A DNA stretch of 64,000 bases from Bartonella sp. HY038. GTDB taxonomy: Bacteria; Pseudomonadota; Alphaproteobacteria; Rhizobiales; Rhizobiaceae. The stretch is taken from assembly GCF_014117425.1 (NCBI RefSeq), contig NZ_CP059725.1, positions 3,050,001-3,114,000 on the forward strand, written 5' to 3'. A program made the position numbers and the translations under genes. Within the stretch, counting starts at the first letter, position 1; each line of letters begins with the position of its first letter. The notes beneath the pieces were generated by a model, which saw only the letters and a list, made by a program, of their open reading frames with translations, was not told the DNA's origin and made no database searches. Positions 8,765 to 57,707 of the stretch are shown here, in pieces.

Positions 8765-9238
8765 ATGGCAAAAAAAGTAACAGTTGCGGATATTCCGCAA
8801 TCAATTGGCCAAGAAGTAGGCCTATCCGATTGGCGTGTTGTTAGCCAGGATATGATCAACCAATTTGCTGATGCAACTGATGACCATCAATTTATCCACA
8901 CTGATCCTGAAAAAGCCAAAGAAACACCTTTTGGCGGTACAATTGCGCACGGATTTTTGACACTTTCGCTGTTATCTACCCTAGCCTATGAAGCATTGCC
9001 GGAACTCGAAGGCCAAACTTTTGGCATCAATTATGGATTCGACAAGGTACGCTTCATGGCACCAGTCAAAACGGGCAGCAAAGTTAGGGCACGTTTTGTC
9101 GTTTCCGATGCAGAAATTCGCCCCTCGGGACGAATTGTTTTCCATTATAATGTAACACTTGAAATTGAAAATAGTAAAAAGCCAGCATTGACAGCCGACT
9201 GGATTACCATTGCTATGGTGCCACCAAAAGAAGATTAA
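8765..9238 (+). CDS. MaoC-family dehydratase / (R)-specific enoyl-CoA hydratase-like
   Basis: 157 residues, one hot-dog fold. The hydratase 2 motif is present: the catalytic Asp and His in FADATDDHQFIHTDPEKA, then FGGTIAHGFLTLSLL. Members add water to trans-2-enoyl-CoA, giving (R)-3-hydroxyacyl-CoA, or are related NodN-type dehydratases; the substrate is not evident. The start at 8765 is chosen because GGAGG lies five bases upstream; an ATG four codons earlier contains that ribosome site. It is a single-gene unit. Confidence 0.82.
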   Translation: MAKKVTVADIPQSIGQEVGLSDWRVVSQDMINQFADATDDHQFIHTDPEKAKETPFGGTIAHGFLTLSLLSTLAYEALPELEGQTFGINYGFDKVRFMAPVKTGSKVRARFVVSDAEIRPSGRIVFHYNVTLEIENSKKPALTADWITIAMVPPKED

Positions 9239-9334
9239 TTATTGCGATTGTTACATTACAATCGGCACTATTTAACCGCATAAAGCATTTGGGGGATAAT
9301 TGCTTACCCCCCCAACACTCACAAAAATTTTAGA

Positions 9335-9694
9335 TTATTTTGAAACAACTTCCAATGGACCATGATCATCACAATGATCGCCATGAGGATGGTGTAAACG
9401 GCCATCAACCAAATAATCAACATGATCGCCATGCGGTACAGCTTCATGACCGCAATTTGGGCCATGAACATGGGCATGATCATGGCCAAGATGATCAGCA
9501 ATTGGATGGCAACCATCTGGATTTTCTTGACTTACTTCAATCACATGCTCATCAACATGGCCATTATGGGGATGATGTAAATGACCATCATGCAAAAAAT
9601 CAATGTGATCGCCGTGCTTTACCGCAGTATGACCGCAATTTTCGCCATGTTCATGATCGTGATTGGCATGCTGGGGATGATTACAAGTACTCAT
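9335..9694 (-). CDS. Possible separate His-rich metal-binding protein from an internal start
   Basis: Within the ArsR-His gene the codon for M113 (9692-9694) is preceded by AGAGGAA at a normal distance (six to seven bases), and the protein from there (MSTCNHPQHANHDHEHG...) is a self-contained 119-residue His/Asp/Gly-rich polypeptide with a two-module repeat. The same mRNA could thus give both the long sensor and a short soluble metal buffer. Alternatively the two were once separate genes fused by loss of a stop codon, with the old ribosome site left behind. Sequence alone cannot decide which product dominates. Confidence 0.45.
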   Translation of the reverse strand: MSTCNHPQHANHDHEHGENCGHTAVKHGDHIDFLHDGHLHHPHNGHVDEHVIEVSQENPDGCHPIADHLGHDHAHVHGPNCGHEAVPHGDHVDYLVDGRLHHPHGDHCDDHGPLEVVSK

Positions 9695-10030
9695 GATAAA
9701 TTCCTCTTTATTTGCTGTATTATCAGTTAATTGATTATCAATCCGATGTTCACAAGCATGTTCCAACGCATTGCTGACCAATGCAAGAATATGATGATCT
9801 GCAATGGAATAAATAACCCTTTGGCCATCTTTGCGTCTTTCCACCAAACGTGCATTTAAAAGCACTTTCAAACGAGCCGATACGGTGCCAATTTTATCAC
9901 CTTCTATTTGTGATAATTCTCCGACACTACGCTCGTCTTGCGCAAGTAGCATAATGGTCTTGAGCCGCAACGGATCAGCAAGAGCCTTAAACATTTGGGA
10001 TGCAAGTTCTATCTGATGTTTCGTTACCAT
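9335..10030 (-). CDS. ArsR/SmtB-type zinc sensor with a histidine-rich tail
   Basis: 231 residues. Residues 1-100 form an ArsR winged helix (ALADPLRLKTIMLLA, then VGELSQIEGDKIGTVSARL). The last helix carries D78-x-H80-x10-H91-x2-E94, the exact spacing of the alpha-5 zinc site of SmtB (CzrA has His at the last place), so it probably represses DNA until zinc binds. Residues 113-231 are a separate His-rich region with two copies of a module: CGH-x-AV-x-HGDHIDFL at 132 and CGHEAVPHGDHVDYL at 193, each followed by LHHPH. This part may buffer zinc, nickel or cobalt. A perfect 12-bp palindrome overlaps its ribosome site, suggesting self-repression. No exporter gene follows it. Confidence 0.85.
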   Translation of the reverse strand: MVTKHQIELASQMFKALADPLRLKTIMLLAQDERSVGELSQIEGDKIGTVSARLKVLLNARLVERRKDGQRVIYSIADHHILALVSNALEHACEHRIDNQLTDNTANKEEFIMSTCNHPQHANHDHEHGENCGHTAVKHGDHIDFLHDGHLHHPHNGHVDEHVIEVSQENPDGCHPIADHLGHDHAHVHGPNCGHEAVPHGDHVDYLVDGRLHHPHGDHCDDHGPLEVVSK

Positions 10031-10037
10031 ATAAATT

Positions 10038-10067
10038 CCAATATTCTAATGATTGTTAGAATATTGG
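10038..10067. promoter_or_regulatory. Operator palindrome of the zinc-sensor gene
   Basis: CCAATATTCTAA - TGATTG - TTAGAATATTGG: perfect 12-bp arms, 6-nt spacer, starting seven bases before the ArsR start codon. Position and A+T-rich dyad are typical of self-regulated ArsR repressors. Confidence 0.75.
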
Positions 10068-10185
10068 ATAAAATATATTTTGTCAAGACCAATTTAAGCG
10101 ATTGAAATCAGATCATGTATGGATGACATCTTTTAAACATATAGGCATACTATCAATGCTACCGGAGACTCTATAAGAGGGCAAT

Positions 10186-10854
10186 ATGTTAACATTACAT
10201 TATCTGGAACGGTCTCGCTCTTTTCGCATTATTTGGGCGCTTGAAGAACTACAGAAAAGCTATGAAATCAAGTATTACAAAAGATCCCTTACATTTTCGG
10301 CTCCGGCTGAATTGAAAAAGATTCACCCTTTAGGCAAAGCGCCAATTCTACAAGATAATGATAATGTCATTGCTGAGTCTGCGGTCATTTTGGAATATCT
10401 TCAAAATAAATATGATCAACAGCATCAGTTCAAACCACAAAAAGATATAGATGTTTTTCAATATTTATATTGGATGCATTATGCTGAAGGTTCATTAATG
10501 CCTTTATTAATGTTTCAATTTGTTATGAATAAGGTCAGCGAAAAGGTTCCATTTATAATTCGCCCAATTGTTAATATCATCACAACAGGTATTAAAGCCA
10601 ATTTTAGCCAACCACGATTAAATGACCACATCACATTTGTTGAGGATCATTTGTCCAAACATGATTACTTTGCCGGCAATTTTAGTTTTGCAGATATCCA
10701 AATGAGTTTTGCGTTAGAAGCGCTATCTTCTATAATTCCAGACCAATGTCCACATATTCAAGCATTTTTAAAAAGAACCCAAGAACGCTCAGCCTATAAA
10801 CAAGCAAAAAGCTATTTAGAAACCTTAAATACCAACGAGCGGCTTGACTTTTAG
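10186..10854 (+). CDS. Glutathione S-transferase family protein
   Basis: 222 residues. The N-terminal thioredoxin-like domain (about 1-80) has the start LTLHYLERSRSFRIIWALEEL, the cis-proline turn KAPIL and the glutathione-binding ESAVILEYL. A helical C-terminal domain follows (about 90-210) with FAGNFSFADIQMSFALEA, the usual N-capping/hydrophobic staple region. It probably conjugates or reduces substrates with glutathione in the cytosol; the substrate is unknown. AGAGGG precedes the ATG. The stop codon TAG is shared with the first bases of a palindromic repeat. Confidence 0.85.
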   Translation: MLTLHYLERSRSFRIIWALEELQKSYEIKYYKRSLTFSAPAELKKIHPLGKAPILQDNDNVIAESAVILEYLQNKYDQQHQFKPQKDIDVFQYLYWMHYAEGSLMPLLMFQFVMNKVSEKVPFIIRPIVNIITTGIKANFSQPRLNDHITFVEDHLSKHDYFAGNFSFADIQMSFALEALSSIIPDQCPHIQAFLKRTQERSAYKQAKSYLETLNTNERLDF

Positions 10855-17202: not shown

Positions 17203-17521
17203 AGATACGCTTTCAAAGATAATTAAAGCATTTCCAGCAAAGGTTGTTTTAACTTTTGCGTTTGGACAATGCGCCAAAATAAAGAATTTAGAGCACGACA
17301 TTGCTTTGACAATAAAAAAACGCGTTCTAAAATGCTTGGACATCTCTATAACTTATATTTTAGCTTTTTAAAAGTGTATCCATAAAGATGCACGACCAAA
17401 ATCATTATGTAATAATGTAAATTTATTCGTGTATTTCCATCAAATATCCATATTTGAAATGACAGTCTATTATAGAAATTTGTATAAATATTTTTAATAT
17501 TTATTTGATTGGGGCTATTTG
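17203..17521. other. Intergenic region upstream of ymdB and the Sel1 genes
   Basis: 319 bases between divergent genes. The left part holds a degenerate palindromic repeat (17226-17332); the right part is very A+T-rich and should contain the promoter of the Sel1 operon. No gene seen. Confidence 0.55.
17226..17332. repeat. Degenerate Rhizobiales-type palindromic repeat, copy C
   Basis: In the opposite direction to copies A and B it keeps the order AGCATTTCC...TTTTGCG...ACAATGCGCC...TTTAGAGC...AACGCGTTCTAA, but with many changes. It covers the 5' extension of the ymdB frame. Weaker than the other two copies. Confidence 0.4.
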
Positions 17522-19342
17522 ATGATTAAAGGTTGGGCGTTAGATATTAATTTTGCCAAAAAGGCGCTTTTTACAACAGGCCTATTGCTTTCTTTATATA
17601 ATATTGCAGTGGCACAAACGCCCCGCGATAATTGCCAAGAGCAATGTCATCAGTCCAATCAAAGGCATGAGCTTATAAAAAAACTTCGCATTGAAGCAGA
17701 GCGAGGCGATGCGAAGGCACAATTTGACCTTGCAAGCATTTATGATAATCGCACTGATCTCATTCAAAAATGCGATGAAGTGTTAAAATGGTATGGTAAG
17801 GCTGCCGAACAAAATTTAGTTATTGCTCAATATGCACTTGGCAATGTTTATAGTGATGGATGGTGCACGGATCGAAATTTTGTTGAAGCAAAAAAATGGT
17901 ATCAAAAAGCTGCCAACCAAGGCCATATTGATGCACAATATCTTTTAGGAATGCAATATAAAAGCGGTAAAGGCACCAAACAAAACTATAGTGAGGCTTT
18001 AAAATGGCTGAGAAAATCAGCAGAAAGCGGCCATGCCAAGGCACAAAATGCTCTTGGGCGCATGTATGATGATGGTCGCGGCACCAAGCAAAATTATGAA
18101 GAAGCAATAAAATGGTATTTAAAAGCAGCCAAGCAAAACAACATAAATGCCCAAATTAATTTGGGATATTTATATTTAAACGGTCAAGGTGTGAGACAGG
18201 ATTATAAAGAGGCAAAAAGCTGGTTTGAATTAGCAGCCAAGCAAGGCGATAAAATAGCGCAATATTATTTGGCGACCATGTACCAAGATGGCTTGGGTGT
18301 ACCCAAAAATGATGTTGAAGCTTTTAAATTATATGGCCAAGCGGCGGAACAAGGTGACAAAGATGCTCAGTTGAATTTAGGCTTATTATATGAGATGGGT
18401 AAGGGTACCAAGCAAGATTATCAAAAGGCCATGCGTTGGTACTCAAACGCCGCTGAGCAAAAACAAGTAAATGCGCAACTAAACTTAGCCTCATTATATA
18501 AACGCGGTCTTGGCGATAAACAAAATTATGATCTGGCACTATATTGGTATGAGCAAGCCGCTAGACAAAGCAATATCGTGGCATATTTGAATTTGGGCAT
18601 TGCATATGAAAAAGGCGAAGGTGTTAAGCAAAACTATAGGGAGGCAGCAAGATGGTATCGCAAAGCTGCAATCCAAGATAATGCCGATGCACAAAATAAT
18701 CTTGGCCTTTTGTACCAAGCTGGATTGGGTGTCAAACAAGACGCTAAACAAGCAATGAATTGGTTTCGCATAGCTGCCGGTCAAGGCCATGGTTTTGCGC
18801 AAGCAAACATAGGTGATCTTTATAAAGATGGCATTGGTGTCAAAAAAAATTATGGAGAAGCAGTCCACTGGTATCACAAAGCTGCAGTGCAAAAAAATAT
18901 TTTGGGGCAGTATAACCTTGCTGGTATGTATCTAGAAGGATTAGGCGTTAAAAAAAATTATAATGAAGCTTTGAACCTTTACCGCTTGGTCGCAGCCCAA
19001 GGCAGCACTGGTGCGCAAGTTATGTTAGGCATCATGTATGAAAGAGGTTTAGGGGTCAAAAAAGATTATGGGGAAGCTGTAAAATTATATTATCAAGCTG
19101 CAATCCAAGGGAATGCCTATGGACAAAATAATATCAGTAACATGTATTTTAATAGTTGGGGCGTAAAAAAAGATTATGAAATAGCCTATATGTGGGCAAG
19201 TTTAGCTGCTTCAAATGATAATACATTTTTAGATGCAAAAAATAAATTTGCCAAAAAATTATCAGCTGAGCAAATTGACAAGGTAAAAATTGCCGTCAAA
19301 CGATGTAAAGACACCAATTATAAAACCTGTGCAATCAATTAA
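17522..19342 (+). CDS. Secreted Sel1-repeat protein, 14 repeats
   Basis: 606 residues. A signal peptide (about 1-38: FAKKALFTTGLLLSLYNIAVAQ) is followed by about 14 consecutive Sel1-like repeats of 36 residues with the pattern A-x-AQ-x-x-LG-x-x-Y-x-x-G-x-G-x-x-x-(N/D)-Y-x-EA-x-x-WY-x-x-AA. It ends in a divergent repeat and a short Cys-containing tail (RCKDTNYKTCAIN). Sel1 solenoids bind other proteins; periplasmic ones act in envelope stress, polysaccharide control or host contact. GGGG lies 10 bases before the ATG at 17522. The next gene is a shorter paralogue 29 bases downstream, so the pair is likely one operon. Function beyond protein binding is not known. Confidence 0.85.
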   Translation: MIKGWALDINFAKKALFTTGLLLSLYNIAVAQTPRDNCQEQCHQSNQRHELIKKLRIEAERGDAKAQFDLASIYDNRTDLIQKCDEVLKWYGKAAEQNLVIAQYALGNVYSDGWCTDRNFVEAKKWYQKAANQGHIDAQYLLGMQYKSGKGTKQNYSEALKWLRKSAESGHAKAQNALGRMYDDGRGTKQNYEEAIKWYLKAAKQNNINAQINLGYLYLNGQGVRQDYKEAKSWFELAAKQGDKIAQYYLATMYQDGLGVPKNDVEAFKLYGQAAEQGDKDAQLNLGLLYEMGKGTKQDYQKAMRWYSNAAEQKQVNAQLNLASLYKRGLGDKQNYDLALYWYEQAARQSNIVAYLNLGIAYEKGEGVKQNYREAARWYRKAAIQDNADAQNNLGLLYQAGLGVKQDAKQAMNWFRIAAGQGHGFAQANIGDLYKDGIGVKKNYGEAVHWYHKAAVQKNILGQYNLAGMYLEGLGVKKNYNEALNLYRLVAAQGSTGAQVMLGIMYERGLGVKKDYGEAVKLYYQAAIQGNAYGQNNISNMYFNSWGVKKDYEIAYMWASLAASNDNTFLDAKNKFAKKLSAEQIDKVKIAVKRCKDTNYKTCAIN

Positions 19343-19371
19343 TTTTAAGCAAAATATATTCGGGGATTTTG

Positions 19372-20463
19372 ATGAAAAATTTAGCAATTAAAAGCTTTAA
19401 TTATATTATCTATATGCTCGTTATAGGCGGTTTTGCGTTCTCTTTACAAAGTCCTGTTGCCGCCCAAGGATTTTCATGTAAAAATTTTCAAAAAAATCAA
19501 AATATTGACGCATTAAAGCAAGATGCAATTAACCAATATCGCTTAAGTGCCGAGCAAGGCGATGCAAAGGCACAATTTAATCTTGCAAGGCAATATGATT
19601 TTGGCAATCGATGGCAAGCTAACCTTACTGAAGCATTTAAATGGTATCAAAAATCTGCCGAGCAAGGTCATGTTAACGCGCAATTGCACCTTGCTGAATT
19701 TTATGAAAAAGGCGAGAGAATAGGATTGGAAATAGAAAAAGATGATGCGCTTGCCTTTAGCTGGTATAAAAAAGCAGCAGATCAAAATAATGCGCAAGCT
19801 CAATTGAAACTTGGGGACATGTATCGATTTGGACGCGGCACTAAATCAAACAAGCAGCAAGCTTTATATTGGTACCAAAGAGCTGCCGAACACGAAGACC
19901 CAGCGGTTGACTATGAACTCTCTAGAATTTATGAAAATGATATTAGCTATAACAATTTTATAGATTTAGATAAAGCATTATTTTTATTGAAAAAATCTGC
20001 AAACAATGGATATGCAACGGCTCAAGCTCAGCTTGGTTATGAATATCAAACGGGTAAACGTGTTGAACAAAATTATCAGCAAGCATTAAATTGGTATTTT
20101 AAAGCTGCCGGACAAAATAATTCATTTGCACAATATCATATCGGCGAAATGTATGACCTCGGCTTAGGTGTTCATAAGGATTTGGCGAAGGCCGCAATAT
20201 GGTACCAAAAATCGGCTAAAAGCGGTGACGTTGGCGCATTTTATGCGCAGTCGATGTTAATTGGCATGTATGAAAAAGGACTTGGCGTAAAAAAGGATTA
20301 TACCAAAGCCTATATTTGGAGCCATATTATATCCTTGGTTGAGAGTAAATATCCATCAGCAAAGGATGTTCTAGCATCCAAGCTTTCTAAAAAGCAGGTG
20401 CGGCAAGCGGAATTAGCAGCCCAAAGATGTATTTGTACAGGCTATAAGGATTGCCCATTATAG
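19372..20463 (+). CDS. Secreted Sel1-repeat protein, about 7 repeats
   Basis: 363 residues, paralogue of the preceding gene. It has a signal peptide (LAIKSFNYIIYMLVIGGFAFSL, cut near SPVAAQG), seven recognisable Sel1 repeats (first AKAQFNLARQYDFG, last IGMYEKGLGVKKDY) with one eroded repeat (PAVDYELSRIYEND), and a Cys-containing tail (QRCICTGYKDCPL) like that of its neighbour (RCKDTNYKTC). The shared end suggests a common disulfide-closed cap and an origin by duplication. GGGGA precedes the ATG at 19372; the TTG one codon earlier is ignored. It ends five bases before a convergent gene. Confidence 0.85.
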   Translation: MKNLAIKSFNYIIYMLVIGGFAFSLQSPVAAQGFSCKNFQKNQNIDALKQDAINQYRLSAEQGDAKAQFNLARQYDFGNRWQANLTEAFKWYQKSAEQGHVNAQLHLAEFYEKGERIGLEIEKDDALAFSWYKKAADQNNAQAQLKLGDMYRFGRGTKSNKQQALYWYQRAAEHEDPAVDYELSRIYENDISYNNFIDLDKALFLLKKSANNGYATAQAQLGYEYQTGKRVEQNYQQALNWYFKAAGQNNSFAQYHIGEMYDLGLGVHKDLAKAAIWYQKSAKSGDVGAFYAQSMLIGMYEKGLGVKKDYTKAYIWSHIISLVESKYPSAKDVLASKLSKKQVRQAELAAQRCICTGYKDCPL

Positions 20464-56567: not shown

Positions 56568-57707
56568 TTAGAACTTATAACCTGGGATACTCAACGGGTT
56601 ATCACTTAATGCTTGTCTATCTGCTGTATCAATTGCGGGTCGGTTTAAAAATGCATCAAAAAGCCCGCGCACATAGGTTTCATCCAAACCATCACCAATA
56701 ATCACAAGACGTGTTTCTGCCTTTTCATCAGGCCAGCTATCAAGGCGTTTTGGCGGATGAAACATGCCTTGCACACCATGAATAATTAAGGGTTGGTCTG
56801 GGCGTTTAATGGTTTGGACAATGCCCTTCATACGTAAAATACGATCGCCTTGTGATGCACGCATTAAATCAACAAAGGCTTCAATTGCTGCATAATCGAC
56901 CGGTTGATTATGGGTAAGACTAAAAGAGCGGATTTTGTCGCTATGCCGGTTTACATCATGATGATGACTGTGGTCATGGTGATTATGCGCGTGGTTATGT
57001 TCGTGATTATGGGCATTATGATGGTCGTGTTGGTCTTCATCGGCAAGCCAGCGTTTGACATCAGCAGTTTTATTATCAATATCATAAATACCACTGCGGA
57101 ATAAGTCACCAATATGCTGTTCAATATCGCTGCTTAAATAAATCTCGGCGCGTGGATTGATGCTGGCGATTTTGCTTCGTAAAGCCTCTAATTGGTTTTT
57201 TCCTTCAACCATATCAGCCTTGGTTATAATAACCCTATCAGCAACGGCCAATTGCTTGACGGCTTCTTGATAATTTTCCAAGGTTTTAACCCCATTTACC
57301 GCGTCAAGGGTGGTAATAACACCATCAAGCTGTAACGCTTCAATAATGATCGGATGAGCAAGCAATATTTGTAATATCGGCGCAGGATCAGCAAGACCGG
57401 TTGTTTCAATGATGATGCGGGTTAAATGATTAATTTCACCCATTTGTAATTTATCAATTAATTCTGCTAGCGTATCAACAAGATCACCCCGAATAGTGCA
57501 GCATAGACAACCATCAGAAAGGGAAATTATCCCTTCATCTGCCTTTTCAACCAAAAGATGATCAATGCCCACTTCACCAAATTCATTGATAATGACAGCG
57601 CTGTCTTTAAGCATATTATCGCGCAATAAGGTGTTTAAAAGGGTGGTTTTACCAGATCCTAGAAAACCAGTAAGGATGGTTACAGGAATATTGCGCTTTA
57701 ATTGCAT
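56568..57707 (-). CDS. CobW/ZigA-type GTP-dependent metal chaperone
   Basis: 379 residues. G1 ILTGFLGSGKTTLLN (14-22 core), IINEFGEVGIDHLLVE, the metal-binding C67-x-C69-C70 (DGCLCCTIRGDL), IIIETTGLADPAP, G4 ITKAD, and a His-rich loop at about 226-255 (alternating His with Asn, Asp, Glu). The C-terminal CobW-C domain ends with LVIIGDGLDETYVR. COG0523 proteins with CxCC deliver zinc (ZigA, ZNG1-like) or cobalt/nickel. Zinc is the most likely metal, given no cobalamin genes except cobST. AAAGGA precedes the ATG. It stands alone. Confidence 0.85.
   Translation of the reverse strand: MQLKRNIPVTILTGFLGSGKTTLLNTLLRDNMLKDSAVIINEFGEVGIDHLLVEKADEGIISLSDGCLCCTIRGDLVDTLAELIDKLQMGEINHLTRIIIETTGLADPAPILQILLAHPIIIEALQLDGVITTLDAVNGVKTLENYQEAVKQLAVADRVIITKADMVEGKNQLEALRSKIASINPRAEIYLSSDIEQHIGDLFRSGIYDIDNKTADVKRWLADEDQHDHHNAHNHEHNHAHNHHDHSHHHDVNRHSDKIRSFSLTHNQPVDYAAIEAFVDLMRASQGDRILRMKGIVQTIKRPDQPLIIHGVQGMFHPPKRLDSWPDEKAETRLVIIGDGLDETYVRGLFDAFLNRPAIDTADRQALSDNPLSIPGYKF

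Follow-up and report, generated by a model that had tools for sequence, protein, structure and literature searches.

What kind of gene arises when a metal-sensing repressor and a histidine-rich protein share one reading frame: a sensor with an appended metal reservoir, or two genes that have lost the stop codon between them while keeping two products? The question is raised by a locus in a 64,000-nucleotide stretch of the Bartonella sp. HY038 chromosome (the window), in which a frame of 231 codons without internal stop codons joins an ArsR domain to a 119-residue His-rich tail of two modules (Table 1), as a sequence-only reading of the locus had described. We judge it likely from the comparisons below that this gene represents a two-gene metal operon, common among bacteria, whose members have become joined; it would act as a self-contained sensor and buffer circuit and from which the free buffer would also be made.

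Table 1. Features of the fused gene and of the region upstream of it (positions in the window)
Feature	Position	Strand	Evidence
Fused ORF, 231 aa	9335..10030	-	ORF listing and translation
SmtB-like ArsR winged-helix domain, residues 10-96	9743..10003	-	Pfam, NCBIfam, SmtB alignment, AlphaFold2
Alpha-5 metal site, D78-x-H80-x10-H91-x2-E94	9749..9799	-	SmtB alignment
Linker, residues 97-112, predicted disordered	9695..9742	-	AlphaFold2 and sister comparison
T-run, TTT here and TT in sister; length sets fused or ATGA-overlapping state	9698..9700	-	Sister alignment
Internal Shine-Dalgarno-like AGAGGAA	9701..9707	-	Sequence; sister alignment
His-rich tail, M113 to K231, 119 aa	9335..9694	-	Sequence; separate 119-codon gene in sister species
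His-rich module 1, residues 132-155	9566..9637	-	Sequence
His-rich module 2, residues 193-216	9383..9454	-	Sequence
Perfect 13-6-13 inverted repeat TCCAATATTCTAA-N6-TTAGAATATTGGA, candidate operator over the -10 box	10037..10068		Repeat search
Promoter-like TTGACA-17-TATTCT	10058..10086	-	10 of 12 consensus bases

The tail, which contains the modules CGHTAVKHGDHIDFLHDGHLHHPH and CGHEAVPHGDHVDYLVDGRLHHPH, belongs to a large family. A search with the tail alone returned 4063 protein matches at E 1e-3 and, among the matches listed, 117 of 120 are 110 to 125 residues long; where names are given, they are mostly 'hypothetical protein' or 'threonine dehydratase', the latter evidently wrong. None of 53 family members matches any Pfam or NCBIfam family at E 0.01, and relaxing the Pfam search to E 10 gives five weak, unrelated families only (best E 0.033). 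The PDB holds no match to the tail by sequence at E 10 and no significant match to its model by fold. By its sequence relatives, the tail is thus a widespread His-rich family without a name. With 29 His and 5 Cys in 119 residues, and no Pfam match among the 53 members, it does not group with the bacterial metallothioneins SmtA and BmtA. A PHGDH-like motif is a feature of the streptococcal histidine-triad (Pht) zinc-binding domain; the tail resembles that domain in this motif but lacks any significant match in Pfam or the PDB. The assignment is not supported, as Pht is not among the five weak Pfam families and its structures 6csl and 2cs7 appear only among the non-significant fold matches (E 6-9). 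A metagenomic protein of 339 residues (P0006) carries three tail-like units in tandem and no regulator domain in its sequence, so the module can be multiplied. On the opposite strand, a His/Asp-rich ORF of 118 codons (9340-9696, +) covers the tail and is present in the sister species too; we read it as a consequence of the symmetry between His and Met codons.

AlphaFold2 models the tail as beta-rich, with two four-stranded units (pLDDT 83.3; 54.6 to 83.3 across five models), and the family alignment has many invariant His and Cys columns. A predicted fold of this kind, as opposed to a random His tail, would suit a zinc chaperone or transfer protein that serves clients or transporters, with the regulator only timing its making, and so would the genes found near some tail loci. 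Around 80 named loci (about 4.5 kb surveyed, one representative typed per gene cluster and no baseline), neighbour clusters include FUR (5 loci), cobW (5), DUF1826 (4), ZnuA (4), ABC-3 (3) and Zip (3), together with an ABC ATPase (7), a TonB receptor (3), an alcohol dehydrogenase (3) and a murein endopeptidase (3). Some of these genes lie near tails that lack a regulator, as at four of the five cobW loci, so control of the tail may follow either zinc excess or zinc shortage. Against the chaperone reading, no metal transporter adjoins the fused gene in the window, judged by ORFs and Pfam. We consider a chaperone role possible, but it is not what we would expect.

Elsewhere in the window, far from the fused gene, 56568-57707 encodes a CobW/COG0523-type GTPase with a long His-rich loop (PF02492, PF07683); GTPases of this type with a His-rich loop are linked to zinc homeostasis. 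At 17519-20463, two adjacent long ORFs consist of tandem repeats, which we take to be Sel1-like.

How the regulator and the tail are arranged in other genomes was surveyed in two samples. The first comprised 87 loci: the window's own, that of the sister species, five of the same class and 80 named loci, the latter being the 80 out of 558 that most resemble the fused query, a choice that favours same-frame pairs. A regulator adjoins the tail in 51 of the 87 and was not found at the other 36. Seven of the 51 pairs, the window's own included, are fused and 44 are split, 26 of these in a common frame interrupted by a stop codon and 18 in other frames; the regulator-tail gaps in this survey range from -4 to 195 bases. 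The second sample was drawn by genome from the class of a Gemmataceae genome, where 72 of 397 genomes have a match at E 1e-20. After two contig-edge fragments (G1014, G1087) were left out, 73 of the 75 tail places listed were classified: the regulator is split off immediately upstream in 47, joined in 5 and not found in 20, with 1 place unresolved; one classified locus, L167, has no start call, yet a regulator match lies just upstream. Thus, a regulator stands directly upstream of 52 of the 73 tails, although several loci are near-copies (for example L190, L193 and L195) and the counts are not of independent events. The unit is rare in sampled genomes of the class and phylum to which the window belongs: the whole protein as query matched in 5 of 385 genomes (E 1e-20) and the tail as query in 6 of 398 (E 1e-10), own genome included in both.

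On these sequence comparisons, fusion is a recurrent minority state, found in 5 of 52 and 7 of 51 regulator-tail pairs, and the tail counts as an independent gene. The construction had at first seemed without parallel; it is instead a common gene pair whose two members have been joined, and most sampled relatives that have both parts, the sister species among them, carry them as two genes.

The pair also occurs on plasmids. A plasmid search gave 13 records, of which four, from Pantoea, Pediococcus, Paraburkholderia and Rhodococcus, were examined. The pair is present as two annotated genes on plasmids of Pantoea ananatis (L133) and Pediococcus damnosus (L136), that is, in both Pseudomonadota and Bacillota, and a transposase adjoins it in Pediococcus; for these reasons, we think that the pair is probably mobile. 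In the 2.5-kb flanks of the tail on the Paraburkholderia and Rhodococcus plasmids, no regulator is annotated, in a gene table that is incomplete.

Several lines of evidence support a second start inside the fused frame. First, AGAGGAA stands six bases ahead of the M113 ATG (9694-9692), at the right distance for a ribosome site, as had been proposed; its match to the Shine-Dalgarno consensus is of four bases (AGGA or GAGG), not AAGGAG. Second, the start is kept in homologues. Among 238 proteins there are 109 fused chains besides the window's own, including one from the same species (P0002), and the junction residue is Met in 102 of them, of which 101 were picked by script and P0002, mis-picked by the pattern, was assigned by inspection; Val stands there in 6 chains and Leu in 1. 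Seven other ten-residue windows contain Met in only 2 to 17 of the 109 chains. Of the 101 script-picked chains, 87 continue with Ser, Thr or Ala after the junction Met, and we would guess that Val and Leu in the other seven chains fit GTG and TTG starts.

Third, DNA is available for nine distinct fused loci (L001, L037, L038, L044, L048, L053, L056, L137 and L138), and all nine have a junction ATG preceded by a Shine-Dalgarno match of at least four bases, with 7 to 11 bases between. When the last ATG before the module was taken instead, 8 of 8 fused junctions had such a match; elsewhere in the same frames it preceded 2 of 11 further ATGs and 300 of 1733 remaining codons. The ninth locus, L038, escaped the pattern used in this test but shows GAGG in the 87-locus survey. 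Tails without a four-base match number 6 of 87 in that survey and 7 of 72 in the genome survey; in both, the start was chosen by Shine-Dalgarno match among nearby candidates, a procedure that flatters the measure. The fused chains and loci are not independent, and no probability is attached to these counts.

A start codon and a ribosome site are thus conserved inside the longer frame, as expected of a gene with two products, and their conservation in the fused chains strongly suggests the free tail as the second product. As read from the alignments, the internal start at M113 is the original start of a formerly separate tail gene, and the fused gene probably makes both a joined sensor-buffer and a free buffer. 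Of the earlier picture of a sensor with a tail and an internal start able to release the module alone, the internal start has held up, and the tail as an appendage has given way to an independent gene that keeps its own start. No RNA element matched Rfam in 9000-10400, and RNA folding at the junction was no better than in shuffled sequences (z 0.78).

Is the fusion itself of consequence? We built a tree of 102 rows with the linker left out; the protein rows were every second fused protein after omission of P0002 and P0015, and two of the 51 pairs (L107 and L109), with weak or broken regulator matches, were also left out. The fused or split state changes at least 13 times on this tree, 6 of the changes being forced by well-supported branches, compared with about 32 on average when states are shuffled; the count is blind to whether fusion was gained or lost. 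The window's row is sister, with full support, to the split row of the sister species. Some clades are fused throughout or almost so (11 of 11 rows in one, 20 of 21 in another), with a bias from rows that were collected for being fused. AlphaFold2 models both domains of the fused protein mostly with confidence (mean pLDDT 86.1; ten-residue block means of 91-98 across residues 1-90) around a linker whose residues 98-111 fall below 50, and comparison with the sister species shows the linker to be poorly conserved, except beside the ribosome site. The alpha-5 residues D, H, H and E/D/H/Q are kept in 41 of 42 split rows and in 104 of 114 fused rows.

Our view is that, for most lineages, fusion is nearly neutral, given a linker predicted to be disordered and a free product that is preserved. 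Selection for the fusion would account for the wholly or almost wholly fused clades better than neutrality would, within the sampling bias just described. A more elaborate alternative is a repeatedly evolved dual-product zinc device, its sole target being itself, in which the ratio of joined to free buffer and the passage of metal in cis would set the threshold, and in which an inner start under lasting selection would set the amount of free buffer; we think this composite less likely than not. A simpler adaptive account, in which tethered ligands near the alpha-5 site buffer or deliver metal in cis and so shift the threshold, while the internal start tunes the joined-to-free ratio, seems to us doubtful. 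It draws on the repeated changes of state, the wholly fused clades, the retention of the alpha-5 site in fused rows and the confident models on either side of the linker; it is opposed by the minority status of the fusion in both surveys, by the presence of fused and split forms in sister species and by a linker that varies between species. In unfused relatives, a free buffer made from the same transcript could already influence the threshold.

SmtB (1r22) is the best solved-structure match of residues 10-96 (E 4.5e-18), and scores above the cut-offs of Pfam HTH_5 (PF01022; 27.8 bits, cut-off 22) and NCBIfam HTH_metalloreg (NF033788; 71.8 bits, cut-off 55) place this part in the ArsR/SmtB family. 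D78, H80, H91 and E94 all fall inside the alpha-5 segment aligned to SmtB, in columns that presumably hold SmtB's own metal ligands, in agreement with the alpha-5 sensor type first recognized from the spacing of these residues. The protein is like SmtB and CzrA in having a winged-helix domain with a D-x-H-x10-H-x2-E site, and unlike them in having a 119-residue His-rich domain joined in frame at its C terminus. From the alpha-5 site and the neighbours in other genomes, zinc is probably the sensed metal; weighing against it, the fused gene's own neighbours in the window, MaoC and GST, are not metal genes, and the clusters near other tails include the alcohol dehydrogenase and the murein endopeptidase named above. 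Co, Ni or Cd in its place is unlikely, given that the four alpha-5 residues align with SmtB and that zinc genes lie near the tail in some relatives. The type of an alpha-5 site does not by itself fix the metal sensed in vivo, and PMC8790569 reports that several metals release AzuR from DNA, which speaks for such an alternative.

The region upstream of the gene suggests how it may be controlled. Nearly all of the inverted repeat lies inside 9335-10067, the span originally singled out, and shuffled versions of the window contain a mean of 0.01 matches to its 26-base core at up to three mismatches. The sister species has a similar inverted repeat, with 16-base arms that are 94% complementary. The promoter-like match is weak when taken alone, with 5 sites this good in the region versus 4.0 in shuffles; both hexamers are also present in the sister sequence. 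The 13-6-13 repeat over a -10-like box is the kind of own-promoter element expected of the ArsR/SmtB family, and differs in spacing from the 12-2-12 repeat given in passages of PMC8790569. Its position suggests a site of self-repression and makes it a candidate operator. A wider regulon was considered and rejected: no second copy of the palindrome was found in the 3.6-Mb genome, the two other sites within three mismatches of the core both have exactly three, and a reversed-pattern control gave more, 4 per strand; weaker sites may exist.

We can assemble these elements into a working scheme. A SmtB-type repressor dimer on its operator blocks the promoter until metal fills the alpha-5 sites. In the two-gene operon, gene one would be such a repressor, of alpha-5 type and probably responsive to zinc, and gene two a small His-rich protein, probably a zinc-binding buffer or chaperone. 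If it works as SmtB does, the dimer would occupy the palindrome that covers the operon's -10 box and keep the operon shut; metal at the alpha-5 site would release it, the sensor and the His-rich protein would be made together, and the His-rich part would bind excess metal and close the loop. With the stop between the parts lost, the sensor would be made only in joined form, through a flexible linker, unless cut later, and the retained internal start would still supply the free tail.

The origin of the fusion can be traced through the sister species (G001), the one further genome of this genus that the relatives search gave. There, the regulator (112 residues) and the tail (119 residues) are separate ORFs with a four-base ATGA overlap, in which the regulator stop TGA overlaps the tail ATG. 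The bases around the junction are common to the two species, and it is the one extra T in the window's T-run that places the regulator and the tail in one frame.

The regulator is far more diverged than its surroundings. Third positions differ between the window and the sister at 15 of 119 codons in the tail, 24 of 222 in GST and 25 of 161 in MaoC, against 37 of 95 in regulator residues 1-95 (Fisher p 1.5e-8 versus the other three together), and dS to the sister locus (L004) is 0.25, 0.22 and 0.27 for tail, GST and MaoC and 1.26 for the regulator. Identity per 100 bases drops to 70-86% from about the junction to about 10130, whereas coding windows on either side reach 88-98%; non-coding windows elsewhere are likewise low (68-87%), and hence the promoter stretch alone proves little. 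The divergence of the regulator, within 9690-10130, suggests allelic replacement: most simply, recombination would have swapped the regulator piece in one lineage, with one end near the junction, and the fusion may have come along with that piece.

A fusion that depends on one base in a T-run could reflect an error of sequencing or assembly that removed the stop between genes as separate as those of the sister, but this is very improbable, as P0002 shows the same fused junction on a different contig (3,387,109 bases, against 3,368,120 for the window's contig) with two substitutions in the tail, and fused loci L037 and L038, in records not marked as MAGs, have different junctions. As a gene of this kind occurs just once in the genome of the window, we infer that P0002 represents a second assembly; Aureimonas ureilytica DSM 18598 and Xanthobacteraceae 501b carry differing fused junctions. 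The joined frame is thus unlikely to be a one-off error.

Genes that give a long and a shorter product are known by other routes. SpaO gives a long product and a C-terminal isoform, the latter from an internal start; CopA and CopA(Z) arise as long and short products by frameshifting. The fused gene resembles these in its two products, here predicted from sequence, and differs in that its internal start survives from a once-separate gene and that sister species have it fused and unfused.

Among passages of PMC8790569, PMC5786701, PMC2770081 and PMC12183173, the closest logic is that of PMC8790569, in which SmtB-family repressors are paired with metallothioneins in the bxmR/bmtA operon and the smtB/smtA divergon. 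As in SmtB/SmtA of Synechococcus, BxmR/BmtA and AzuR/NmtA of Anabaena, a SmtB-family repressor is coupled here to a small partner, predicted to sequester metal. The partners SmtA, BmtA and NmtA are Cys-rich metallothioneins encoded by separate genes in the passages of that source, whereas the partner in the window is His-rich, belongs to a family without a name, shares the regulator's reading frame and has an internal start. In the titles and abstract openings of the matches listed, with few subscription journals among them, neither the fusion nor the tail family is described. Within this known kind of pairing, the predicted sequestering partner here comes from a family without a name, and the two genes have repeatedly been split or fused with the inner start kept.

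The locus illustrates how annotation by the longest ORF can hide a conserved internal start. It also points to a large uncharacterized His-rich family, with 4063 matches, a predicted fold and a zinc-related setting at some loci. Finally, sister species that carry a sensor and buffer operon as one gene or as two, a change that other bacteria have made too, constitute a natural experiment, and these natural alleles allow the effect of tethering on the set point of metal homeostasis to be asked directly.
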